IMG/VR virus record: IMGVR_UViG_3300048839_000251
Span: 1 to 28,773 of that record
Reading direction: 5' to 3' (one strand)
Length of the DNA: 28,773 nt
Source: a virus
Positions 1 to 28,739 of this stretch are shown here, in pieces (the stretch's first letter is position 1; each line of letters starts with the position of its first letter). The position numbers and the translations under genes are program-made. The notes below the pieces were generated by a model. That model did no database searches. It worked only from the letters and a program-made list of their open reading frames with translations, and was not told the origin of the DNA.

Positions 1-6
1 GAAGAC

Positions 7-132
7 GCCTAACGTAGAGGTAACCGGCGCGCGGAGGCGAGGCGCCCTGGCCGCGAGGCGCAGGATAGACAACGAGCGCATCGCGGCCAGGGCGCCTTGC
101 CGTAGTGCGTCCGGTTGACCGACATGTTAGGC
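7..132 (+). other. attC-like site A (integron cassette recombination site)
   Basis: The element opens with GCCTAAC (7-13) and closes with GTTAGGC (126-132), which are exact reverse complements and fit the RYYYAAC/GTTRRRY core boxes of attC sites. Inside them lie unpaired spacers (GTAGA and GACAT), then GGTAACCGG against CCGGTTGACC, which pair except for one extra base, as the L boxes of attC do. The centre is a perfect 16-bp inverted repeat (41-56 with 81-96). The 126-bp length is within the usual attC range. The bases GAA GAC GCC TAA at the very edge look like the end of an upstream plus-strand gene whose stop lies in the left box, the usual cassette layout. No integron integrase is visible. 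An alternative is a phage-specific intergenic palindrome, but the paired boxes with extrahelical base argue for attC. Confidence 0.72.
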
Positions 133-159
133 GGCAACGAAACAATCTAGGAGAGCAAC

Positions 160-522
160 ATGGGAACGATGATTCAGCAATACCAAGGCGCCAAGCGCGA
201 ACACGACGAATGCGCCGCATGGGCTGGGATGATTGGCAGCAAGTATCACGGCGGCGGCGGCGGGATTGGCGAACTGACGTCGCTGCGCCTGATGAGTGGC
301 GAAGCCGCGCCGACCGTGTACCACCAGTACAGCGACGGCGCGAAGAACTACCACCACATGCCGGCCGCGCTGGCGCCGCACCTGGAGGCCGCGATCAAGG
401 CCCGATTCGGCGAACTGCTGGCTGACGCGCTGGAGCGCCAGAAAGCCGCGCTGAAGCAGGCTGCGGAGGCGGCCGTGAAGGAGCATGGCGAACTACTGAA
501 GGCGGCTGGTATTGCTGCCTAA
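160..522 (+). CDS. hypothetical cassette protein, 120 aa
   Basis: I do not recognise a named function. The start follows a good AGGAGAG ribosome binding site (149-155). The N-terminal half contains a glycine run (about residues 31-35) and a VYHQYSDGAKNYHHMP stretch; the C-terminal half (about 70-120) is alanine/glutamate/lysine-rich and likely a long helix or coiled coil. There is no signal peptide or membrane segment. Its TAA stop is the central TAA of the left box of attC-like site B, so the gene sits in a cassette bounded by sites A and B (about 127-622). I infer it is a real gene from the ribosome site, amino-acid composition and lack of a better frame; the function is unknown. Confidence 0.75.
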   Translation: MGTMIQQYQGAKREHDECAAWAGMIGSKYHGGGGGIGELTSLRLMSGEAAPTVYHQYSDGAKNYHHMPAALAPHLEAAIKARFGELLADALERQKAALKQAAEAAVKEHGELLKAAGIAA

Positions 523-628
523 CGCAAAGCTCACCGGCACGCAACGCGAGGACCGCACATGACAGAAGACACCACCACGCCAGCACCCAGCGAGCCCGTT
601 GCGGGTCCGGTGCAGCGACCTGTTGGGC
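517..628 (+). other. attC-like site B
   Basis: GCCTAAC (517-523) and GTTGGGC (622-628) form the outer boxes, pairing at six of seven positions plus one G-T. The inner boxes GCTCACCGG and CCGGTGCAGC pair with one extra base left out, as in site A, and the spacers (GCAAA, GACCT) do not pair. GCAACG and CGTTGC give further inner pairing. Length is 112 bp. The left box carries the stop codon of the preceding gene, and the variable centre carries the start codon and ribosome site of the next reading frame. Confidence 0.68.
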
Positions 629-816
629 GGCTGGAGCCGGAGCGCGACCAAGATGGCCAGCGAGGCAGCTACGGCTGCGCATGCGTGGCCGACTCGGCGC
701 GGCTGTGCACGCTGATTCGCTACGGCCGCGACATTGACGGCCACGAGCAGCACGACGACGACGACTGCGAGTGCTTGTGCCACCAGTGGAGAGGCGACGA
801 TGACTACCTGGGCTGA
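559..816 (+). CDS. Cys/Asp-rich small protein, 85 aa
   Basis: A GAGGA ribosome site precedes the ATG. Residues 1-30 are low-complexity (Thr/Pro/Arg). The C-terminal half holds a cluster of cysteines and histidines (about residues 40-78: CAC, then HEQHDDDDCECLCH), compatible with a small metal-binding fold; function unknown. The first 22 codons are encoded inside attC-like site B, so the frame crosses the expected recombination point at 622/623. Either the gene truly starts there, or a GTG at 685 is the native start and the N-terminus is an accident of cassette joining. The end overlaps the start of the next gene by 17 bases, which favours co-translation. Moderately sure it is real. Confidence 0.55.
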   Translation: MTEDTTTPAPSEPVAGPVQRPVGRLEPERDQDGQRGSYGCACVADSARLCTLIRYGRDIDGHEQHDDDDCECLCHQWRGDDDYLG

Positions 817-988
817 TGAGTACCTGACGCTGCTGGAAGACTGCGAGCGGCGAAGCGACAAGCTCTCCGATTGGGAGTGCGGCTTCGTGGACAGCCTGCA
901 GCGCCAGCTTTCTGAGGGCCGGCGCCCCACCGCGAAGCAGATCGAGACGCTCGACCGCGTGTGGGAGAAGGCGACGGCACGAGGATGA
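800..988 (+). CDS. small phage-type protein, 62 aa, unknown function
   Basis: The ATG at 800 follows GGAGAGGCGACG, a good ribosome site; an in-frame upstream ATG at 734 would add a threonine-rich stretch that is only the shadow of the overlapping gene. The protein is short, charged and helical, with a motif of the type KLSDWE-x-GF-x-DSL...LT/PTAKQIETLDRVW that I recall from small proteins of phage early regions, with no assigned function. It ends two bases before attC-like site C and is the second gene in its putative cassette (about 623-1040). Real with fairly high confidence; role unknown. Confidence 0.72.
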   Translation: MTTWADEYLTLLEDCERRSDKLSDWECGFVDSLQRQLSEGRRPTAKQIETLDRVWEKATARG

Positions 989-989
989 C

Positions 990-1046
990 GCCCAACGCAG
1001 AGCTGTGCGGCGTGCGCAGCACGTCCGAACGAGCGCCGGGTTATGC
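990..1046 (+). other. attC-like site C
   Basis: GCCCAAC (990-996) and GTTATGC (1040-1046) are the outer boxes; the second departs from GTTRRRY at one position. Inner boxes GCTGTGCGG and CCGAACGAGC pair imperfectly, again with one extra base. The centre CGTGC-GCA-GCACG is a perfect 5-bp stem with a three-base loop. At 57 bp it matches the short end of known attC sizes. This is the weakest match of the four, but position (just after a plus-strand stop) and form agree with the others. Confidence 0.6.
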
Positions 1047-1072
1047 CTCGGCGCCAAATACGGAGGAATGAC

Positions 1073-1234
1073 ATGGACCACCTGATTGACGACAGCGACC
1101 GGCTGAAGCCCTGCCCGTTTTGCGGCGCGGAAGCGGAAATTATCACGCTCGAAGGCGAGACGGACGAGCCGAGCGTCGGCGCTCAGTGCGTGCAATGCAC
1201 CAGCAGTGCAGCATGCAAGACCCGGTGCCAGTGA
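1073..1234 (+). CDS. Lar-like zinc-ribbon protein (restriction alleviation family), 53 aa
   Basis: The protein reads DRLKPCPFCGAEAEI near residues 8-22 and has a second Cys pair (CVQC) near residues 40-43, the CPxCG...CxxC zinc ribbon of the Lar_restr_allev family. Members of this family in Rac prophage and other phages modulate host type I restriction; here the role is inferred only from the ribbon. The ATG at 1073 has a GGAGGA site seven bases upstream, which decides the start. It begins 26 bases after attC-like site C and is the first of two overlapping genes in that cassette. Many unrelated small phage proteins share this ribbon, so the exact function is open. Confidence 0.7.
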   Translation: MDHLIDDSDRLKPCPFCGAEAEIITLEGETDEPSVGAQCVQCTSSAACKTRCQ

Positions 1235-1476
1235 AGGACAACCACCTGTCGTGCTGCCTGGGCGTGAAGGCGCGCGAGTGCCCGCACCTGCTGGCGCTGG
1301 AGAAGATCGAGCGTTGCACGCCCGAGGACGTGGACGCCGCGAAGGCTTGGACGTGCGCGGCGCACATCGTGAGCAAGGGCGGCGACTTCGCCAACGAGGG
1401 GTACATGCTGCGCGTCGATGACCGCATGTACTGGGACAACGTGTACGAAAGCCTCGCGCAGAGCGATGAGGGCTAA
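1213..1476 (+). CDS. cysteine-containing small phage-type protein, 87 aa
   Basis: Function not recognised. The N-terminal part has CC, C and H-x-x-A...C residues (LSCCLGVKARECPHLLAL) and the middle holds AKAWTCAAHIVSKGGD followed by NEGYMLRVDDRMYWDNVYES, a pattern I associate with small uncharacterised phage proteins. No ribosome site precedes ATG 1213; a GTG at 1231 overlaps the preceding stop as GTGA, the coupling used widely in this window, and may be the true start (81 aa). The TAA stop lies in the left box of attC-like site D. It shares a cassette with the Lar-like gene. Confidence 0.7.
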   Translation: MQDPVPVKDNHLSCCLGVKARECPHLLALEKIERCTPEDVDAAKAWTCAAHIVSKGGDFANEGYMLRVDDRMYWDNVYESLAQSDEG

Positions 1477-1536
1477 CGCAGAGGTAACCGGCAGACCCGG
1501 CTTGCCGGGGCTGTCCGGTTGAGTGACGGGTTAGGC
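1471..1536 (+). other. attC-like site D, between convergent genes
   Basis: GGCTAAC (1471-1477) and GTTAGGC (1530-1536) pair at six of seven positions. GGTAACCGG and CCGGTTGA repeat the inner boxes of site A, and the centre CCCGGC-TT-GCCGGG is a perfect hairpin. Sites A and D share a nearly identical left end (TAACG, one variable base, AGAGGTAACCGGC). The plus-strand gene on its left ends with TAA inside the left box, and the minus-strand gene on its right ends with TAA formed by the complement of the right box. Length 66 bp. It could also act as a bidirectional terminator, although there is no clear U tract. Confidence 0.68.
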
Positions 1537-1716
1537 GCCTGGTGGTAGTCGGAGCTTGGCTCGCCGCAGGTATGGGACAAGGCGCCCGAGCCTGTGCAAC
1601 GCGCGCAGCGTGGCCGCGTGCTCTGGATCGAGCCGGATTGTGCAGACCGGCGTTTCCCGCCGCTGCTCGGGCGGCACCGGCGGGCGCCCGATGCGCTTTC
1701 CGACGGTCCCGCTCAC
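1531..1716 (-). CDS. putative ribbon-helix-helix-type small protein, 61 aa
   Basis: GTG start overlapping the preceding stop as GTGA. The middle reads TPVCTIRLDPEHAATLRALHRLG, which resembles the beta-strand plus helix of ribbon-helix-helix DNA-binding proteins, after a basic proline-rich N-terminus (GKRIGRPPVPPEQRRE). Such a protein could bind DNA as a dimer and regulate nearby genes; this is inferred from pattern only. It is the last gene of a three-gene minus-strand set and its TAA stop is part of the right box of attC-like site D. Confidence 0.6.
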   Translation of the reverse strand: MSGTVGKRIGRPPVPPEQRRETPVCTIRLDPEHAATLRALHRLGRLVPYLRRAKLRLPPGA

Positions 1717-1955
1717 GGCTTGCTCGACAGCTTGGCCAGGCCGATGATCGCGTCAGCCAAGTCGGCGGTGCGATCCTCCGGGCTGAGCAGATCGAAGGCC
1801 ACGGACATGACGCGGTTGGCGTCGGCGGCGCCGCGCACAGGCAGGCCCATCGCGTGCAGAGCTGGTGCGGGCTTTGTCAGGGCCGCGACGGCGGCTTGGT
1901 AGACGACTTGCGCGCCATGCGCGCGGCACGCGGCGATGATGTCTTGCTCGGTCAT
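1713..1955 (-). CDS. hypothetical protein, 80 aa
   Basis: The ATG follows GAGGAG at good spacing. The sequence is helical and soluble, with no membrane segment or recognised motif; a stretch around LLSPEDRTADLADAIIGLAKL near the C-terminus looks like an amphipathic helix. It lies between two small minus-strand genes, 15 bases after the end of the one upstream and overlapping the RHH-like gene downstream, so the three are probably co-transcribed from the promoter near 2280. Function unknown. Confidence 0.65.
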   Translation of the reverse strand: MTEQDIIAACRAHGAQVVYQAAVAALTKPAPALHAMGLPVRGAADANRVMSVAFDLLSPEDRTADLADAIIGLAKLSSKP

Positions 1956-1970
1956 GCTGTGCTCCTCGGG

Positions 1971-2252
1971 TCAGCGGTAGACGCCAGTTTCGGCGCCGCG
2001 GTAGATGGCGGCAGTGCGGGCGCGGTATTGATGGTCGGCGATGTCGGCAGCGGACGGCTGCGGCGCATCGACGGTCTTGGTGTGGTTGACGTAGCCCAGC
2101 AACTCGCCGCGGCCGGCGGCGGCTGTGTCGCGCTTGGCCTTGGCAAACAGGCGGTCGTCGAACTTGGCTGGAGACGTGACGGACTCGACGGCGCCGCTCG
2201 GGCGACGGACGGTCAGGACGCTGTGGCTGTGGATTTCGAGGGTTTTGGTCAT
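1971..2252 (-). CDS. hypothetical protein, 93 aa
   Basis: First gene of the minus-strand trio, starting at an ATG preceded by GGAG. The N-terminal 30 residues look beta-rich (IHSHSVLTVRRPSGAVESV), followed by a charged helical part (FDDRLFAKAKRDTAAAGRGELLGY) and a tail ending in YRARTAAIYRGAETGVYR. I recall similar small proteins in phage early or accessory regions but none with a known function. The promoter-like sequence about 30 bases upstream and the palindrome CTGTAATACAG overlapping its -10 suggest the trio is regulated. Confidence 0.65.
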   Translation of the reverse strand: MTKTLEIHSHSVLTVRRPSGAVESVTSPAKFDDRLFAKAKRDTAAAGRGELLGYVNHTKTVDAPQPSAADIADHQYRARTAAIYRGAETGVYR

Positions 2253-2365
2253 TGCTGGCTCCGCGCTGTCGATGTGTTTACTGTAATACAGCCAAGGGCG
2301 CAGCGCAAGCCCGTATGCAGATTATTTTGTAACACGCGCAAGGCGCTTAACACGCTTTAGACCAA
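2253..2365. promoter_or_regulatory. divergent intergenic region with promoter and operator-like repeats
   Basis: The gap separates the minus-strand trio from a plus-strand gene and is AT-richer than its surroundings. On the minus strand TTGCGC (2303-2308) and TACAGT (2280-2285) are 17 bases apart and sit about 30 bases before the ATG at 2252. The 11-base palindrome CTGTAATACAG (2281-2291) overlaps this -10 and could be an operator. On the other side, AACACGC occurs twice as a direct repeat (2331-2337 and 2349-2355) 18 bases apart, in front of the plus-strand gene. Promoter function is inferred. Confidence 0.45.
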
Positions 2366-2596
2366 ATGGCCGACCTCGCCCAACACCTGCGCGCCCTTGC
2401 GCGCCACGCGCACGACGACCTCTCGATCGGCGACGAGGCAGCAGGCGAGATCGAGCGGCTGCAGCGGGCTCTGGCCGCCGAGCGCGAGCGCTGCGCGGCG
2501 ATCTGCGACGAGATCGGAGACCGCGCCTGGGAGCAGTGGCGGACCACAGCCGACCCCCTAGTCGCGCTGACCGAGTGGCTGCGCGAGGTCGGATAG
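2366..2596 (+). CDS. small coiled-coil-like phage protein, 76 aa
   Basis: The protein is helical and charged, with EIERLQRALAAERERCAAICDEIGDRAWEQW in the middle; the ERERCAAICDE motif is common in small phage proteins of unknown role. No clear ribosome site precedes the ATG, so the start is less certain, or the message may have a very short leader. It points away from the minus-strand trio and converges on the end of the late operon, overlapping the last late gene by 39 bases at their 3' ends. Confidence 0.6.
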   Translation: MADLAQHLRALARHAHDDLSIGDEAAGEIERLQRALAAERERCAAICDEIGDRAWEQWRTTADPLVALTEWLREVG

Positions 2597-2890
2597 CACA
2601 TCACGCGCCGTCTCTGCCGCGCGCAGCAGCTCCTCGTCGCTGACCGCGCCGCCCAGCGCGCGCGCCTGCAGCGCCTCGACGACGGCCTCGGCTGCGCGCC
2701 GGCCGGCGTCGATCTGGCGCACCAGCCGGTCGCGCTCGGCACGCTCGGCGCGCCGATCGCGCAGCACGTACTGCCGCGCCTCGTGCAGCGCAGCCCAGGC
2801 GATCATCAGCCGCGTGCGCAGGTCACGGCGCTGGCGTGCCCGGCGACGGGCCTGCAGCCAGTAGCGCAGGCGATCCCAGGCGCTGGGCAC
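2558..2890 (-). CDS. hypothetical coiled-coil protein, 110 aa, end of late operon
   Basis: GTG start two bases after the Rz stop, so it appears to be the last gene of the late transcript. The protein is very basic in its first 30 residues (RLRYWLQARRRARQRRDLRTRL) and strongly helical after that, with a probable coiled coil across about residues 40-75. There is no clear membrane segment. The 3' end overlaps the convergent plus-strand gene by 39 bases. A lysis accessory role is possible from position alone; function is not recognised. Confidence 0.5.
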   Translation of the reverse strand: MPSAWDRLRYWLQARRRARQRRDLRTRLMIAWAALHEARQYVLRDRRAERAERDRLVRQIDAGRRAAEAVVEALQARALGGAVSDEELLRAAETARDVLSDLAQPLGQRD

Positions 2891-2892
2891 GC

Positions 2893-3417
2893 CTACGGCC
2901 CCGGCGCGCTGGCAGCGAGCCCTGCGGCCCGCACGTAGGCCTGCAGGCCCTCTAGGCGGGCGCCGTCGTGGTCAGCAGCAGCTGCCACCGTCGATAGAGC
3001 TGCCGCACACTCTCGGACCACGACGGCGAGCCGTCCGGCGACAACGGAGGCGCCATCAGCTCGGCCGGCGGCGGAGGCAGCGTCACCGGACGCACAGGCG
3101 TTGGCAGCGTAGTCGGCGACCGCAGCGCGCAGCCGCTCGCCGTCATCGCGCAGAGCAGCAGCAGCGCGCTCGACGCGCGCGAGGCGGGATCGGGTCTCAT
3201 CGTAGGCTCTCCTGACGGCGGATGCGGTTGCGGCTTCGCTCGCTCGCGCTGCTGCTTCGGCGGCGGCGGTTGCCTCGGCTCGCTCGGCTCGCTGCGTGGC
3301 CTGCTCTGCTGCGGCCCGAGCCTCGCGGGTGTTGCGCCGCTCGGCGATGTTGGCCACGACAGCCAGCGCCAGCAGCAGGGCCAGCACGGCGGCGATGGTG
3401 GCGGCGATGCGGGTCAC
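2893..3417 (-). CDS. Rz: Rz-like inner-membrane spanin (DUF2514-type), 174 aa
   Basis: GTG start overlapping the endolysin stop as GTGA. Residues about 4-24 form one hydrophobic transmembrane segment (IAATIAAVLALLLALAVVAN), followed by a long alanine/arginine/glutamate coiled coil (about 25-105) and a C-terminal domain resembling DUF2514 spanins. Such proteins sit in the inner membrane, pair with an outer-membrane lipoprotein across the periplasm and fuse the membranes in the last step of lysis. The partner is encoded wholly inside this gene in another frame, the classic nested Rz/Rz1 arrangement. Confidence 0.85.
   Translation of the reverse strand: MTRIAATIAAVLALLLALAVVANIAERRNTREARAAAEQATQRAERAEATAAAEAAARASEAATASAVRRAYDETRSRLARVERAAAALRDDGERLRAAVADYAANACASGDAASAAGRADGASVVAGRLAVVVRECAAALSTVAAAADHDGARLEGLQAYVRAAGLAASAPGP
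2952..3200 (-). CDS. Rz1: Rz1-like outer-membrane spanin lipoprotein, nested in Rz, 82 aa
   Basis: The frame lies entirely within the Rz gene but in a different phase. Residues 12-24 give a short signal peptide ending in the lipobox ASGC, with Cys24 as the expected lipidated residue. The mature part is about 59 residues and proline-rich at first (TLPTPVRPVTLPPPPAELMAPP), as is usual for Rz1, ending in a short helix with QLYRRWQLLL. Location, lipobox and proline content together support the call. It would link to the C-terminus of Rz across the periplasm. Confidence 0.85.
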   Translation of the reverse strand: MRPDPASRASSALLLLCAMTASGCALRSPTTLPTPVRPVTLPPPPAELMAPPLSPDGSPSWSESVRQLYRRWQLLLTTTAPA

Positions 3418-3974
3418 GCTCCACCCTCCACGGACAGCGGCGCGCGCTTGCCCAGGCACAGATCGCGCTCGGCCTGCCGGCGCAGCCAGACGCCGTAGCA
3501 ATTGTTCGCTCGGACGCGGCAGTCGGTCAGCACGCCGCGGATGCGGACCTTGCTGTAGGCCGTGATGCGCTCGCAGGCCTGGGCCATCTTGCCGGCGCGG
3601 ATCAGATCGCCCAGGCACTCCGAGCGCGGCAGGCACGAGGCGCAGACGTTGGCCGCGCCCACGTTGTAGGCGAGGCTCGCCAGCGCGTCGTACTCGTGTT
3701 GCTGCAACTGCACGCCGGTGCGGCCGTATGTGCAGGCCAGCAGCTCGCGGCCGTGGCGCTCGATTGCCGTGCGCGTCAGCTCGTCGCACTGCGGCCGGGT
3801 GTACTGCGTGCCGATGGCCACGCCGCGCACGACGACGCCCGCGCAGACCGTGGGCACGCCGCCCACGTCGGCATAGACGCGCGTCTCGTTGCCCTCGCGC
3901 TCGACGATCCAGCCGACGAGGCCGACCGACGCGACGACGACGCCGCCGATGACGGCATTGCGCAGGCCGGGCAT
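3414..3974 (-). CDS. SAR endolysin, GH24 lysozyme family, 186 aa
   Basis: This is a muramidase that cuts the glycan chain of peptidoglycan. Glu27, Asp36 and Thr42 have exactly the E-8x-D-5x-T spacing of the T4-type catalytic triad (in EREGNETRVYADVGGVPT). Residues about 8-24 form a weak, glycine-rich hydrophobic segment directly before the catalytic Glu, typical of a signal-arrest-release anchor that tethers the enzyme inactive in the membrane until the holin collapses the potential. The protein has ten cysteines, which is high for its size and suggests disulphide control. ATG at 3974 overlaps the preceding stop (TGATG). Confidence 0.88.
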   Translation of the reverse strand: MPGLRNAVIGGVVVASVGLVGWIVEREGNETRVYADVGGVPTVCAGVVVRGVAIGTQYTRPQCDELTRTAIERHGRELLACTYGRTGVQLQQHEYDALASLAYNVGAANVCASCLPRSECLGDLIRAGKMAQACERITAYSKVRIRGVLTDCRVRANNCYGVWLRRQAERDLCLGKRAPLSVEGGA

Positions 3975-4438
3975 CAGTACGGCCCCCCAGGCGGTGGAGG
4001 TGGCGGAGGCGGAGCGTGCCCCGTCATCATCATCTTGACCGCCGCGTAGATCGAGGCGAGCCCCAGCAGCGGCGCCCCGATCCACATGATCACGCGGCGC
4101 GTGCGATCCACCCAGCGCAGCGCCGCGGCAATGTCGTCTGTCACGGCTGCCGACGACTCAAGCCGGGCACCGATGCCGTCCAGACGCTCAACGATGGTCG
4201 CCTGCGCGTCGGCCACAGCGAGCATTCCCTCGGCGAGCCGGTCGATGCGGTGCTCGATGTCCTGCATGCGTGCCTCCTGGCGTAGCCTGTGCTCGCGCGC
4301 TGCGGTCTGCTCGACGACGACGGCCGCGAGCTGCTCTGTCAGGTGCCGCTGGCCTGCGGCCACCGCGACGGCGGAGTGCTCCAGCTCGTCGACCCTCGCG
4401 CACAAGCCGGCGAAATCGGTGTCAAGCCCCATGGTCAT
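3974..4438 (-). CDS. XhlA/holin-like membrane protein with coiled coil and polyproline tail, 154 aa
   Basis: Residues about 15-110 form a long coiled coil; residues about 116-138 (VIMWIGAPLLGLASIYAAVKMM) are the only membrane segment, followed by a short tail of eight consecutive prolines and GGPY. This layout resembles haemolysin XhlA-like or single-pass holin-type proteins of lysis cassettes. Position directly upstream of the endolysin supports a lysis role, as holin or accessory; the family is not certain. The ATG overlaps the preceding stop as ATGA; a second ATG two codons on is an equally possible start. Confidence 0.6.
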   Translation of the reverse strand: MTMGLDTDFAGLCARVDELEHSAVAVAAGQRHLTEQLAAVVVEQTAAREHRLRQEARMQDIEHRIDRLAEGMLAVADAQATIVERLDGIGARLESSAAVTDDIAAALRWVDRTRRVIMWIGAPLLGLASIYAAVKMMMTGHAPPPPPPPPGGPY

Positions 4439-4707
4439 GCTCCGTCGTCGTCGTCGTGCGTGCCGCCGAACTCGGGCCGCAGCGCGTACTCGGTGCGCCA
4501 CGTGCCGCGCTGCCCTGGGACCGGCTGTCGCTCGCGCGAAAGCAGCAGTCCGCAGTCCTCCCACGTGCGCAGCCACGCCGACGCGGTGGCCGTCTGTACG
4601 CCCAGCTCTTCGGCCGCCTCGGCGCGCGTGACCCACTCGGTGCGCGTGCGCTTGAGCAGGTCTGCCGCCATCGCTGCCGCCAGGACGCTCTTGGGGTGCG
4701 GCTTCAT
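4435..4707 (-). CDS. small helix-turn-helix protein, 90 aa
   Basis: A recognisable helix-turn-helix or winged-helix core spans about residues 25-60 (TEWVTRAEAAEELGVQTATASAWLRTWEDCGLL), followed by a beta-wing-like part with RGTWRTEYAL and an acidic tail of four aspartates. It probably binds DNA, perhaps regulating late or lysis genes. The ATG overlaps the end of the upstream gene. Reading straight through from the upstream start gives a 193-residue fusion with an arginine-rich linker; I reject that as a frame artefact (see the frameshifted gene). Confidence 0.65.
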   Translation of the reverse strand: MKPHPKSVLAAAMAADLLKRTRTEWVTRAEAAEELGVQTATASAWLRTWEDCGLLLSRERQPVPGQRGTWRTEYALRPEFGGTHDDDDGA

Positions 4708-5016
4708 CGGTCGCCCTCCTCGCTCAGCAGCGCCGCGCCCACGTCGGCCGCGGTGCGCGCGGCGATGGCCACGGCGCGCAGGTAGCGCATGCACTCGCGC
4801 GTCTGCTTCCGGCGTCATGTCCGTCCGCGCGCTGTGCGCGAGCTGGTAGTAGGCGACGCCCGCGCCCGGCGCGTAGTCGATCTCGATCAGCCGCCCCAGC
4901 GCCAGCAGCACCGGCGGGCGCTGCGTCAGCTCCACGGTCACGCCGGCATGCTTGGCGATGCCACGGCCTTGCGCGGCACACCACCACAGCCGCGTGCGAT
5001 GCAGGTCGTCTGACAT
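4704..5016 (-). pseudogene. hypothetical gene interrupted by a one-base frameshift (103 aa if repaired)
   Basis: The ATG at 5016 has GGAGG seven bases upstream. The first 70 residues (to TDMTPE) look like normal protein. Continuing in frame gives arginine/alanine-rich shadow sequence, whereas skipping one base at about 4806 gives QTRECMRYLRAVAIAARTA and a natural ending (LLSEEGDR) whose TGA overlaps the next ATG as ATGA, the coupling style of the whole operon. So a single inserted base near 4806 most likely breaks the gene. It may be real decay, an assembly error or, less likely, programmed frameshifting. An isolated restart at ATG 4790 would give only 28 residues. Function unknown. Confidence 0.65.
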
Positions 5017-5032
5017 TTCATCGCCTCCTCGA

Positions 5033-8000
5033 TCACGGCACGATCAGTTGCAGAGACCCGAAACCGATCACCGCATTGGCCCCGGTGTTGTCGGTAGCGA
5101 ACAGCACCGTCAGGTTGGTCAGGTGCGTGCCGCTCGTGGCGTCGCTCAGCACGTATTCGCGGTCGGTGGTCATGGCTAGCCAGGTGTCGGTGGTGCCGCT
5201 GTCGAGGCTGTGCCCCGTGGCGGTTACGCGCAGCCAGAAGCTGGTGTTACTGGCCAGCACGGCGCCGGCCCACTGGCCGGCGTCCTGATAGCTGCCGCCG
5301 CTGCCGCGCTTGACCTGAAACCGACCATCGCCCAGGAACTTGAGGCCGATCCACGTCGTCGTCGCGCTGATGACGTGAAACGCCCCGCCGACGATCGGAC
5401 CGGCCGGGATACCGCCCTTGGCCTTGGCGATGTTGAGCGTGCCCGTGATGTCGGCTTGCCCCGCCTTGGCGCCGCGGAACGTCACCTGCCCGGTGTCGGC
5501 CGACATGGCAGTGAACGTGGCCGTGGCGCCAGTGCCGCTGCTTGGCGTCATGTTGGTAGCCGTCCACGTCCATGCCCAGTTGGCGCTGTCGTCGGTGCCG
5601 TTCTTGTTGGCACGGGCGGTGATGCTGGCCGATGACCAGTCGGTCACCACGCCGTCGCTGGTGGCCGGAAGCAGCAGGAACCCGGGGTTTGCCTGAAACG
5701 TGTAGACGTCGCTCGCCGCTGTGCCCTTGAGCACCGGCAGCACGCTCTCCAGCGGCAGCTCGCCGGGCTTGGTCAGCCGCAGGCGCACACCGCCCTCGGT
5801 GGCGCTGGTGGCCAGCAGGGGCGCACGGCGGGCAAATCCAGCGCCATCGACCAGCGGCAAGAACCGCTCCGGCAAACTGCCGTCAACAGCCGGCGGGCCA
5901 CCCGCGGGCGGCGCCCCGCCACCATCCAGCCATGTCTTGCCGTCCGTGGTGTACAGCAGGTCGCCGCCGCCGCCGGCGGGCAGCATATACAGGACCCCGC
6001 TGATCTCCACCAGCTGGCCCTGCGTGATGGTCGCCGGCAAGGTGACCGCGACCCACACGCCGGCCTCCAGGTAGGCGGCCTTGTTGGTGGCTGACCAGAA
6101 GGTGACGACGGTCCGACCCTGGAAGCCGCGCGCATCCCAGATTTGATAGGGCAGGCCGCTGATGGGCGACCAGCTGCTGCCCGCATTGGTCGACAGATAG
6201 TCCACCCCGCTGGCAGCCCGGCCGACCCAGGTGCCCGGCGTCGTCGGCAGCAAGGTCGTGCTGTTGGCCGGCATCGTGGCGGCGGACCACGTGGCGCCGC
6301 CGTCTGTGCTCTGGCATCCGGCGGTGCTGCCCACTGGAGCTATGAGGATCTTGCCGCCACCGGCGCGCATGCTGTTCCACTGGCCGCTGACGGGCAGCGA
6401 TACCGAGCCGCTAAAGGTCAGGCCGCCGTCGGTGCTTCGCCGCAGCTTGTTGGTGCTGCCTACGCTGCCCTCGATCAGGCAGAACGCACCTTGGTCGGAT
6501 GTGCCAAGCTGCCAGCGGCCGGCAAGGCCAACGTCCTGATCGGTCCAGACCTTGAAATCGGTACTGCGCTTGACCTTCTGCCAGGTGGTCGACGTGTTGT
6601 AGCCCAGCATCAGGTAGACGCCGTCGCCAACGATCGCCCCGATCGGGTAGCTCCACCCGGCAGCGGCGTAGTCGATGGTCTCGGATTCCGGCGTGCCCAG
6701 CGTGCCCAGCGCCAGCAGCGCCGTCACGTCCACGCGCTGGCCGGTCAGCGTGCTGCTCACGTTGATGTCGGTCTTGCTCGGCGTCCAGTTGACGGTGTCG
6801 TCGAGCTTGCCGCCCTTGATGACCTTGTACTCAGCCCACGCATCGTCATAGCTGGCCACGTCGCCGGTGGCCGTGACGGGCAGGCGGATCTCGCTGCGCG
6901 GGGTCCACACCACCTGGTAGCCGGCGCCGCTGGCCTCGGCCTTGTCGACCACGAAGCTCGCGCTCAGCGTGTCCACGCCGTCGTCGGCCTCCACCAGCAC
7001 CGCGCCGGTGGGCACGGTCATCGCGCTCACGGCCACCAGCACGCTGGTCGGGTTGGCGACCGGGCCCGCGCCGCCGTTGATGGTGGCGGTGACGCCGCTG
7101 TCGGGCGTGATGCTCCAGGTCCAGTCGTCGGTGGTGTCGGTCAGCCCCTCGTACACCGCGGCCTCGGTCTCGGCGCCGCTGTAGTCTCCGTATTCACCGC
7201 TCTCGTCGGTGGGCACGGCGTGCGTGGGGTTCGACAGATAGAGGTACGGCGCGGTGGTGGTGCTGTCCTGCCGGTAGATGTCGAGCGTGTCGCTGGCGCT
7301 GCCCAGCGTGGCCGTCACGCGCACGCGGCGCACGCTGCCGCTGCTGCCAGGCGCCACGAACTGCGCAGCCGTCATGGTGCGCGCGTTGCCCGTGCCGCCA
7401 AGCGTCACGGCGCCCAGGCTGCTGCCGCCGGTGCGTGCGTCGAATGCCTCGGCCGTGAAGCTGGCCGTGCCGAACAGGTTGATGAGGTTCGCCGTGATCG
7501 TCAGCGTCTCGTCGCCAGGGGCCTGCGCGGTGTGCGTGGTGCCGTCCGCGAAGCTGAAGAACGGGAAGCGGTCGGTCGTGAGCGTCAGCAGCCCGACGGT
7601 GCCGATCTGGTCGATGCTGTCGTCGACCGTGACGCTGATGCTGGCCGCGTTGGCGCTCGCGTTGCCGGTCGTGTCGACGTGCTTGGCGCGCACGATGTAG
7701 GTGCCGTCCGGCGGACGCGGGCGCTTGTAATCGCTGCCGGCGACACGCGCGAGGAAGGTGGCGTCAGCCCATCCCGTGCCGCCCTCACGCAGCTCGGTGT
7801 AGGCGTAGTCGCCGTCGGTGCACGGATCCCACGTCGCCCACACCTGCGTCGGCTTGATGGTCGCGTCGAGGTTGGCCACGTCTTGCGGCGGCGCCGCAGC
7901 GCCAAGCGCGACGAGGCTCGTGTGCGCCCAGTTGCTGACCACGCCGGTCGGCGACACAGCGCGCACGCGCGCGATGTACGCCACGCCCTCGACGAGCGGC

Positions 8001-27067: not shown

Positions 27068-27477
27068 TGCAGGTGACCTGTAGGCCGTAGAAGGCCATCC
27101 CATTCGGTGCCAACGTGTGCGGTCTTGGCGTCGGCCTGCGCCTGTGCACGCTTGCCTGGCGTCTCTGCGGGATTGATGCCTTCGCTTTCGCGCCAACCGG
27201 CCCGCACCTTCAGCCAGAAGATGGCCGCGACAACGTTCGGCTTGCTGGAGTCAGTCGCGGCCCGGAACAGTGAAGCTGCAACCTTGGCGTTCGCCTCGAT
27301 AGCGCCGACGTCCAACTCGTCTCGGAAATGGACAGTGAGCGTTGGCCGAGTGATCCCAATCACTCTCGCGATGTCGTCCTGCGGAATGCCCATAGCCGAG
27401 AGCATCCGTACCTGCGCGCGGTCTTTCTCGCTGGGCTGATATGGCGGGCGGCCGCCCGCCTTTCCTGACTTCCCCAT
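27064..27477 (-). CDS. terminase small subunit-like DNA-binding protein, 137 aa
   Basis: Directly upstream of the large subunit, with ATGA coupling. The N-terminus is basic (MGKSGKAGGRPPYQPSEKDRAQV), followed by a helix-turn-helix VRMLSAMGIPQDDIARVIGITRPTLTVHFRDEL (about 23-55), then an oligomerisation-type region ending with AIFWLKVRAGWRES. Such proteins recognise the packaging site and load the motor. Called from position and the HTH; sequence identity to a specific family is not claimed. Confidence 0.78.
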   Translation of the reverse strand: MGKSGKAGGRPPYQPSEKDRAQVRMLSAMGIPQDDIARVIGITRPTLTVHFRDELDVGAIEANAKVAASLFRAATDSSKPNVVAAIFWLKVRAGWRESEGINPAETPGKRAQAQADAKTAHVGTEWDGLLRPTGHLQ

Positions 27478-28079
27478 CAGGCGGCCTCATCCATTGCCAT
27501 GCAGCCCGCCTCTACTTCGGCGAACGTCCGGCCATCACCTTCTAGCGTCGCGGCCTGGCCGGTGAAGGCTTGCCAGCGGCGGACGATGACGTCGCAGTAG
27601 CGCGGGTCCAACTCCATCAGGCGCGCGATGCGACCGTTCTTCTCGGCCGCGATCAGCGTCGTGCCACTTCCGCCAAAGCTGTCCAGCACGATGTCACCGC
27701 CCTTGGTGTTGTTCAGCATCTGGTACTCGAACAGCGCCACCGGCTTCATCGTCGGGTGCTCGGCATTGCGACTTGGCCTGTCGAACTCAAGGATGGTCGT
27801 CTGCTTGCGGTCGCTCGCCCACAGGTGGCCGGCGCCATCCTTCCAGCCGTACAGACAAGGCTCGTGGCGCCAGTGGTAGTCCTGACGCCCCATGACGAGC
27901 GTTTGCTTCTTCCAGACAAGGCACTGCCGAACCTGCCATCCGGCGTCGATAGCAGCGCCACGGAAGTTGTAGCCCTCCGAATCGGAGTGCCAGATGTAGA
28001 AGACGGCGCCTGGCTTCATCACAGCATCAGCAGCCACGTAGGCGTCTCGCAGAAACTGCCGGAATGCGTCAGCGCCCAT
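27477..28079 (-). CDS. C-terminal half of split DNA methyltransferase (SAM-binding part), 200 aa
   Basis: Reads in the same frame as the upstream half but is separated from it by TAA at 28119-28121. Family sequence resumes right after that stop (GKTKAKLTIEND), before the first internal ATG at 28079. It contains the HEPCLYGW segment, HPTMKPVALFEY, and the AdoMet-binding motif LDSFGGSGTTLIAAEK (about 118-133), typical of beta-class N4/N6 methyltransferases where DPPY precedes the FxGxG motif. On its own it lacks the catalytic DPPY, so it should be inactive unless it complements the other half. The stop overlaps the small-terminase ATG. Confidence 0.82.
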   Translation of the reverse strand: MGADAFRQFLRDAYVAADAVMKPGAVFYIWHSDSEGYNFRGAAIDAGWQVRQCLVWKKQTLVMGRQDYHWRHEPCLYGWKDGAGHLWASDRKQTTILEFDRPSRNAEHPTMKPVALFEYQMLNNTKGGDIVLDSFGGSGTTLIAAEKNGRIARLMELDPRYCDVIVRRWQAFTGQAATLEGDGRTFAEVEAGCMAMDEAA

Positions 28080-28118
28080 CGCGTCGTTCTCGATGGTCAG
28101 CTTCGCCTTCGTCTTGCC

Positions 28119-28739
28119 TTAATACGCCACGTTGTACGGCGGATCGGTCAGCCACATGTCGACCATCTGGCCGGCGCACAACCGCTCCAGTTCGTCGATC
28201 CGCGTGCTGTCGCCGCAGAGCAGCCGATGCCACCCCATCACCCAGACGTCGCCAGGCTTGGTCACCGGCTCGGGCTGCACCTCGGGCGCATCGTCAGGGT
28301 CGGTCAGGCCGGCTGATCCAGTGACGTCCTGGCTCGCCATGAAAGCGGCAAGTTCGTCCTCGCTGAAGCCGATCAAGCTCAGATCGAAGTCGGCGTCCTG
28401 CAGGTCCAGAAGCTCGGCGCGCAGCATCGAAGCATCCCAGCCTGCAGCAAGGGCGAGGGCGTTGTCAGCCATGACATACGCGCGACGCTGCGCTTCGCTG
28501 AGGTGCCGAAGCTCGATTGTTGGCACCTCTTTGATGCCGAGCTTGCGCGCCGCAAGGACGCGGCCGTGCCCGGCAATGATCCCTCTGTCGCCATCGACCA
28601 AGACTGGGTTGGTCCACCCGAACTCCCGGATCGACGCCGCAATCTGTGCCACCTGGGCGTCCGAGTGCGTCCGCGAATTGCGTGCATACGGAATCAGCGC
28701 GTCAAGTGGCTGGTAGCGGATCTTGAGAGGTTCTGTCAT
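28119..28739 (-). CDS. ParB-like domain plus N-terminal half of DNA methyltransferase, cut by in-frame TAA, 206 aa
   Basis: Residues about 8-75 are a ParB/sulfiredoxin-type domain (NSRTHSDAQVAQIAASIREF and IIAGHGRVLAARKLG). Residues about 165-206 begin the methyltransferase and end in the catalytic motif TDPPYNVAY, directly followed by TAA. Continuing in the same frame gives GKTKAKLTIEND and the rest of the enzyme (420 residues in all), so a single codon, where relatives appear to have Glu or another sense codon, ends it early. Fused ParB-methyltransferases of about this total length are common just upstream of terminase genes in phages; they protect phage DNA from restriction. A weak AAGGA site lies before the ATG. 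Confidence 0.85.
   Translation of the reverse strand: MTEPLKIRYQPLDALIPYARNSRTHSDAQVAQIAASIREFGWTNPVLVDGDRGIIAGHGRVLAARKLGIKEVPTIELRHLSEAQRRAYVMADNALALAAGWDASMLRAELLDLQDADFDLSLIGFSEDELAAFMASQDVTGSAGLTDPDDAPEVQPEPVTKPGDVWVMGWHRLLCGDSTRIDELERLCAGQMVDMWLTDPPYNVAY

Follow-up and report, generated by a model that had tools for sequence, protein, structure and literature searches.

An attC array in a siphophage genome fragment whose cassette genes run antiparallel to their attC sites

The attC array at the left end of the phage fragment

We analyzed the 28,773 bases of IMG/VR virus record IMGVR_UViG_3300048839_000251 (positions 1 to 28,773, hereafter the window), which begin with an array of attC sites, the recombination sites of integron cassettes. 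Positions 1540 to 28,739 are mainly a minus-strand morphogenesis module, in which PHROGs comparisons identified genes for the terminase large subunit (TerL), portal, head maturation protease, major head and tape-measure proteins; a phage lysozyme gene lies in the same region. With these head and packaging genes the window belongs to the tailed phages (Caudoviricetes), and it is a siphophage genome fragment. The first 1.5 kb carry small plus-strand genes with four hairpin elements between them, at 7 to 132 (site A), 517 to 628 (site B), 990 to 1046 (site C) and 1471 to 1536 (site D). An initial annotation, made from the letters alone, had described these four elements as an attC array lacking an integrase, in or next to a phage genome, carrying small phage-type genes, one of them Lar-like. 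The analysis below supports this description, except for the polarity of the array.

The four elements were examined with a covariance model (CM) built for this work, not that of IntegronFinder, from 19 attC sites of bacterial loci and the R100 plasmid only, oriented by their extrahelical base; the window was scanned with filters off. The initial annotation had staked its proposal on such a search, to be given up if nothing matched. The results showed that all four sites were recovered, all on the minus strand, and that nothing else in the window fell below an E value of 0.5. Site D, the last of the array (66 nucleotides [nt]), scored 49.0 bits (E = 1.7e-10), site A (126 nt) 47.4 bits (E = 4.5e-10), site B (112 nt) 40.8 bits (E = 2.2e-8) and site C (57 nt), the weakest, 27.6 bits (E = 5.2e-5). 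Plus-strand scores at the four sites reached 11.9 bits at most (10.2 bits at site A). In a structural attC scan of our own, sites A, B and D were the sole matches in 28.8 kb; shuffled windows gave 0.8 matches on average, with each site counted on both strands. The R boxes RYYYAAC and GTTRRRY are paired: sites A and B match both, site C matches on the minus strand, and site D matches GTTRRRY on the plus strand with one departure on the minus strand. When the sites are read on the minus strand, the CM alignments contain unpaired spacers and L boxes whose L'' has an extrahelical base. Three features place R''...R' on the minus strand: this base, the lengths of the spacers (9/8 nt) and a C preceding GTTRRRY. 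The plus-strand orientation given in the initial annotation was wrong. In the control site attC-aadA1 of R100, the extrahelical base lies on the opposite side relative to its own gene. A heuristic polarity score misjudged site B and a bacterial site (L041:4008); the CM assigns both to the minus strand. The R' core of site A, GTTAGGC, occupies 13 to 7 on the minus strand, and crossover is predicted between 12 and 13. Judged by these sequence features, all four elements, including site C, the weakest by eye, are genuine attC sites, and their recombination is predicted.

The left ends of the sites belong to a 28-nt repeat family, at intervals of 510, 473 and 481; a 25-nt family comprises three of the right ends. 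A near-identical 126-nt counterpart of site A occurs in a bacterial Burkholderiaceae metagenome-assembled genome (MAG; L041:4660-4785), where the CM also puts it on the minus strand. No match was found for the window in Rfam at gathering thresholds, or for window positions 1 to 8000 by BLASTN against phage and plasmid records.

A 39.6-kb sister contig (L007) prolongs the array to eight sites, every one on the minus strand, so that the window, in its left 1.5 kb, contains the last four sites, the right half of an eight-site array; the part covered by the window is identical in both. No candidate for the integron integrase IntI was found among the window open reading frames (ORFs), and none in L007. 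The phage attI motif described below was searched for in the window and is absent. With four attC sites in the window, eight in L007 and no nearby intI in either record, both being fragments, the array fits the definition of a cluster of attC sites lacking an integrase (CALIN; at least two attC sites). The intI gene and attI site of a complete integron are thus missing from the window; both are present in other phages with like arrays. The flank to the left, where the initial annotation had suggested looking for intI or more sites, yielded the four further attC sites but not the integrase. The window contig itself starts at the left box of site A (1 to 13), from where L007 runs on leftwards; an assembly break at an attC site could reflect population variation in the array.

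The genes between the sites all lie on the plus strand. Cassette gene 1 (160 to 522; 120 amino acids [aa], function unassigned) ends with a TAA supplied by the left box of site B. Compared with its homologue in the viral contig L012, it differs at 5, 6 and 29 first, second and third codon positions, giving 28 synonymous and 9 non-synonymous codons, while the overlapping antisense frame would have 2 synonymous and 40 non-synonymous changes. This pattern places gene 1 on the plus strand and rules out the competing minus-strand ORF at 127 to 486; by the same comparison, gene 1 is evidently under purifying selection. Homologues were found in L011 (the same contig as L007), L012, L013 and L014, and no match was found among phage records. 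Cassette gene 2a (559 to 816, 85 aa), detected both as an ORF and by gene calling, starts within site B and had no match in a protein family search; it is followed by cassette gene 2b (800 to 988, 62 aa). A Lar-like (restriction alleviation) gene lies at 1073 to 1234 (Pfam Lar_restr_allev, E = 8.7e-6, below the curated cut-off). In the IntI-bearing phage L222, which shares window positions 1031 to 1210 at 86.7% nt identity, the Lar gene is called at 86 aa, and the window copy is probably truncated. Cassette gene 3b (1264 to 1476, alternative start 1120) receives its TAA from the left box of site D. Within cassette 3 (1073 to 1476), the match to L222 stops at 1210, and a match to two other contigs (L070 and L086) begins at 1225; the cassette looks like a fusion of two genes. 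On the minus strand at 1531 to 1716 there is a 61-aa ORF with a ribbon-helix-helix-like look and a weak BrnA_antitoxin match (E = 0.13). Its stop lies inside the GTTAGGC box of site D; in contrast to the plus-strand genes, this ORF would run parallel to the site.

As initially annotated, the stops of the plus-strand genes (522, 988 and 1476) fall within or next to left boxes. Those at 522 and 1476 are made by RYYYAAC boxes. Because RYYYAAC supplies a TAA in either polarity, these stops do not decide polarity. The plus-strand genes are thus antiparallel to the minus-strand attC sites. The architecture assumed at first, a gene followed by its attC site as in bacterial cassettes, with the gene parallel to its own site, is not what the window contains; the polarity is the opposite.

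Gene polarity relative to attC in viral and bacterial arrays

To see the window array beside others, viral contigs were searched with two pattern scans blind to gene direction, which gave about 140 loci, and genes were assigned with a home-made gene caller and classifier (area under the curve [AUC], 0.91 to 0.95). A first polarity test based on raw ORF geometry (184:67) was noisy and was superseded by the gene caller and then by the CM. With the heuristic polarity score, 207 sites in all fetched viral loci were antiparallel and 15 parallel, or 90 loci versus 6 with none mixed; bacterial sites were 22 parallel versus 2 antiparallel. The CM polarity run covered 61 longer viral loci (the best 150 viral hits) and 53 bacterial or plasmid loci. 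Among these best viral hits, gene ends were antiparallel in 109 cases and parallel in 2 (46 loci versus 1), whereas bacterial gene ends were parallel in 70 and antiparallel in 2 (34 loci versus 1). The antiparallel layout is therefore general in viral contigs and is found in tens of phage contigs. Among the few antiparallel "bacterial" loci is a 4-kb contig of a Thiobacillaceae MAG (L030), which may be a phage contig binned into the MAG. The class-1-like site pattern TAACAA...AACTCAA had no occurrence in the viral contigs.

Several observations weigh against a strict rule for phages. Six viral loci were parallel in the heuristic run, two of them derived from isolates. Most of the viral records are metagenomic. 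The single parallel viral locus of the CM run (L159) comes from an isolate genome, as does L120, which has 10 parallel sites with intI at the contig end; the contig behind L149 and L172, parallel by the heuristic, was left out of the CM run. The isolated phage TJE1 also has parallel sites.

Could the antiparallel pattern be produced by the gene calling or by the polarity assignment? The classifier is home-made, and antisense ORFs are plentiful in high-GC DNA. However, when applied to bacteria the caller yields the reverse result, the CM assigns polarity independently of genes, the codon-position test fixes the strand of gene 1, and intI (see below) is an unambiguous strand marker. We give such an artefact almost no credence. 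It is also highly improbable that the window holds an ordinary CALIN, that is, a piece of a bacterial array taken up by a phage with its genes parallel to attC. Phage CALINs and captured bacterial integrons do exist (PMC9892861), including that of Shewanella M16-3, in which we found the genes divergent from intI, site A resembles Burkholderiaceae chromosomal sites, and stop codons lie within left boxes. Against this stand the four minus-strand sites with plus-strand genes, the parallel genes of bacterial arrays with the same type of site, and the occurrence of stops in RYYYAAC in either polarity.

Phage integrases, attI sites and cassette exchange

IntI scored above the curated cut-off in 3 of 50 attC-bearing viral records (L120, L178 and, as a partial gene, L107). 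In L178, a 348-aa IntI gene directly follows the array and is itself followed by a phage-type integrase gene; relatives of this IntI were found in 48 viral contigs. Genes upstream of intI were co-directional with it in 33 viral contigs and opposed in 1. Of the bacterial loci, 22 had divergent genes and 6 co-directional ones, and Xer-like false hits account for two of these 6. The attC sites were opposite to intI in both groups (18:1 in viral and 16:0 in bacterial loci). Together with the co-directional genes, these counts indicate that the intI-attI-attC geometry is standard in the phages and that only the genes are turned. Phage markers accompany IntI on its contigs, such as a terminase and a phage integrase in L202 and a tail protein in L222. 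In an IntI tree, 33 viral sequences formed one clade (SH-aLRT support, 89). The IntI of L219, L210, L234 and L238 fell outside it, near bacterial IntI, still with co-directional cassette genes; this scatter speaks for multiple origins or for integrase swapping.

Upstream of phage intI we found a conserved attI motif, RYYYAAC followed by TTAAATTCnnCGACA, which was absent from 369 gammaproteobacterial genomes. The pattern alone matches many viral contigs in which IntI was not detected, partly by chance. In L205, L209, L247 and others, repeated CGACA motifs surround attI and extend into the first codons of intI; they are possibly binding sites or a regulatory element.

Closely related phages differ at this attI. 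L202 and L203 share 5.5 kb on the left at 99.98% identity; to the right, starting at the attI core, identity is 96%. A 421-nt unit, consisting of an attC site and then a 120-aa gene, sits at attI in L202 and one place further out in L203, where a different cassette of about 337 nt occupies attI; the homology breaks at AAC boxes. L224 and L227 are identical over 1,335 bp from attI rightwards, and their left flanks agree at 99.86%; the array is about 2.75 kb long in L224 and about 0.36 kb long in L227. L207 and L208 contain shuffled blocks. In the pairs checked in sequence, the breaks fall at AAC boxes and at attI. Cassettes are thus naturally gained and lost at attI in sister phage integrons, and the unit moved, as seen in L202 and L203, is an attC site together with the gene to its right on the coding strand. 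Applied to the window, the crossover rule and this pair define three predicted mobile units: 13 to 522 (site A with gene 1), 523 to 995 (site B with genes 2a and 2b) and 996 to 1476 (site C with the Lar fragment and gene 3b). Movement of a gene with one attC site as a block was seen in these relatives, while the window species offers a single array state. Gene content between the sites, which the initial annotation had proposed to compare, thus varies in related phages but is unchanged between the window and L007.

These data also bear on a rival idea, in which the hairpins would merely resemble attC and would be RNA elements or fixed terminators of the phage. Their position between genes and at gene ends, and the unchanged array in L007, would fit such elements. 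We consider this very unlikely because a model of bacterial sites scores them at 27 to 49 bits in a strand-specific manner, because the changes among related arrays involve entire units, delimited by the boxes and by attI next to intI, and because a near-identical site D (98.6% over 69 nt) occurs in another phage contig (L008) with different flanking genes.

Counterparts of the window cassette genes were found in attC arrays of phages whose backbones differ. Gene 1 has homologues in L012 and L014; the attC-bearing viral contigs L078 and L137 match positions 800 to 986 (gene 2b) at about 77% nt identity, L222 and L102 match the Lar region, and L070 and L086 match positions 1225 to 1492 (the gene 3b region) at 74% nt identity. 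In L012 (380 to 960), the gene 1 homologue has 88.6% nt identity and stands between attC bodies unlike those of the window, the homology beginning in the right arm of the left attC site. That gene 1 adjoins a different attC body there counts against cassettes as fixed pairs: a gene is not invariably accompanied by the same attC site, and attC bodies may diverge quickly or be swapped without the genes.

A phage-borne integron type and its relation to known systems

Taken together, the window array very probably represents a widespread phage-borne integron type in which cassette genes are inverted relative to attC, with IntI supplied in trans. IntI from a co-infecting phage, a prophage or a host integron would act on the window sites; IntI is able to act in trans (PMC9892861). 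The folded strand would be the window plus strand, which is both the attC bottom strand and the coding strand, with recombination at GTTRRRY, and units of attC then gene would be moved. What counsels caution for this particular phage is the lack of intI and attI in the window and of intI in L007, with identical arrays, so that activity here is a prediction drawn from two fragments. Indeed, inverted phage cassettes could be real and the array of the window an immobile relic, a possibility that we regard as rather doubtful and that is compatible with the proposed integron type. Besides the missing intI and attI and the unchanged array, the degenerate site C and the fusion-like cassette 3 would agree with a relic; action of IntI in trans, the same cassette genes in the IntI-bearing phage L222 and the purifying selection on gene 1 speak against it.

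If recombination chemistry locks attC polarity to attI and intI, only inversion would let cassette genes read along intI and the phage operon. This idea predicts transcripts that run through the cassettes into intI, and the inversion would keep phage and bacterial integrons in separate, polarity-incompatible cassette pools. With some reservation, we favor the broader view that tailed phages have an integron system of their own, with a phage-clade IntI, a phage attI and an opposite-polarity pool sealed from the bacterial one, that counter-defence genes are stored, shared and recombined in this pool, and that the window phage uses it through an integrase acting in trans. Integrons are usually regarded as bacterial devices carried by phages sometimes by accident. 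Instead, there would be two cassette pools with a common recombination chemistry, each expressing the cassettes of the other as antisense. This would bear on the origin of cassettes, on the one-by-one exchange of anti-restriction and anti-signalling genes among phages, and on why phage-borne attC sites need not supply resistance arrays. Gene polarity relative to attC would then be a simple rule for separating phage-pool from bacterial-pool cassettes in metagenomes.

Bacterial cassette arrays and CALINs, such as Burkholderiales chromosomal integrons and their relatives, resemble the window in attC architecture and sequence type (L041, L018 and L040), and bacterial integrons share the IntI family and the attC-to-intI geometry with the phage type. 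They differ in that their genes are parallel to attC and divergent from intI, whereas the window genes are antiparallel to attC. In integrons with a reversed intI, e.g., that of Treponema denticola, intI is turned round and the genes remain parallel to attC. Their intI is likewise co-directional with the cassette genes; in the phage type, by contrast, intI, attI and attC keep the standard arrangement and the genes are turned. Virus Rctr41k (KX853513; L289, 4680 to 9434) was considered as an annotated example of the inverted type and rejected, since its sites are located beyond intI and most of them are parallel. Its gene annotated as "xerD integrase-like" is an IntI relative; the attC-like sites (about 128 nt each) come after it, the genes point the same way, and the layout of this virus looks like that with a reversed intI.

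Carriage of cassettes by phages, which the initial annotation had thought unusual, is in itself already on record. Qi et al. described phage CALINs and captured integrons (TJE1, P12002L, PH101, Shewanella M16-3 and Vibrio p16), also attC clusters in phages and often without intI, and found that IntI1 recombined five of six phage attC sites tested (Qi et al. 2023, PMC9892861). TJE1 and PH101 were presented there with typical bacterial structure; TJE1 is parallel by our scans, unlike the window, and Shewanella M16-3 keeps the bacterial divergent layout, unlike the phage type described here. Among open-licence papers we found no closer precedent, neither for the inverted polarity nor for phage integrons with IntI and attI; earlier work elsewhere is possible.

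The cassette proteins had a median length of about 100 aa in the full set. A Pfam search of 128 of them detected six N6/N4 methyltransferases, three C5 methylases, two Acb2/Tad1 hairpin proteins, one Mom and one Lar protein, in addition to NinB and several DUFs (domains of unknown function); most proteins had no assigned function. From these few proteins, the cargo (methyltransferases, Lar, Mom and Acb2/Tad1-like hairpins) suggests a swappable counter-defence store. Phage accessory and anti-defence islands likewise contain small variable genes, DNA methyltransferases and anti-restriction genes; they differ from phage integrons, in which single genes carry a site-specific recombination site. 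At the opposite end of the window, on the minus strand (27,477 to 28,739), a ParB-like/DNA methyltransferase phage gene is apparently split into two adjacent ORFs, at 27,477 to 28,079 and 28,119 to 28,739.
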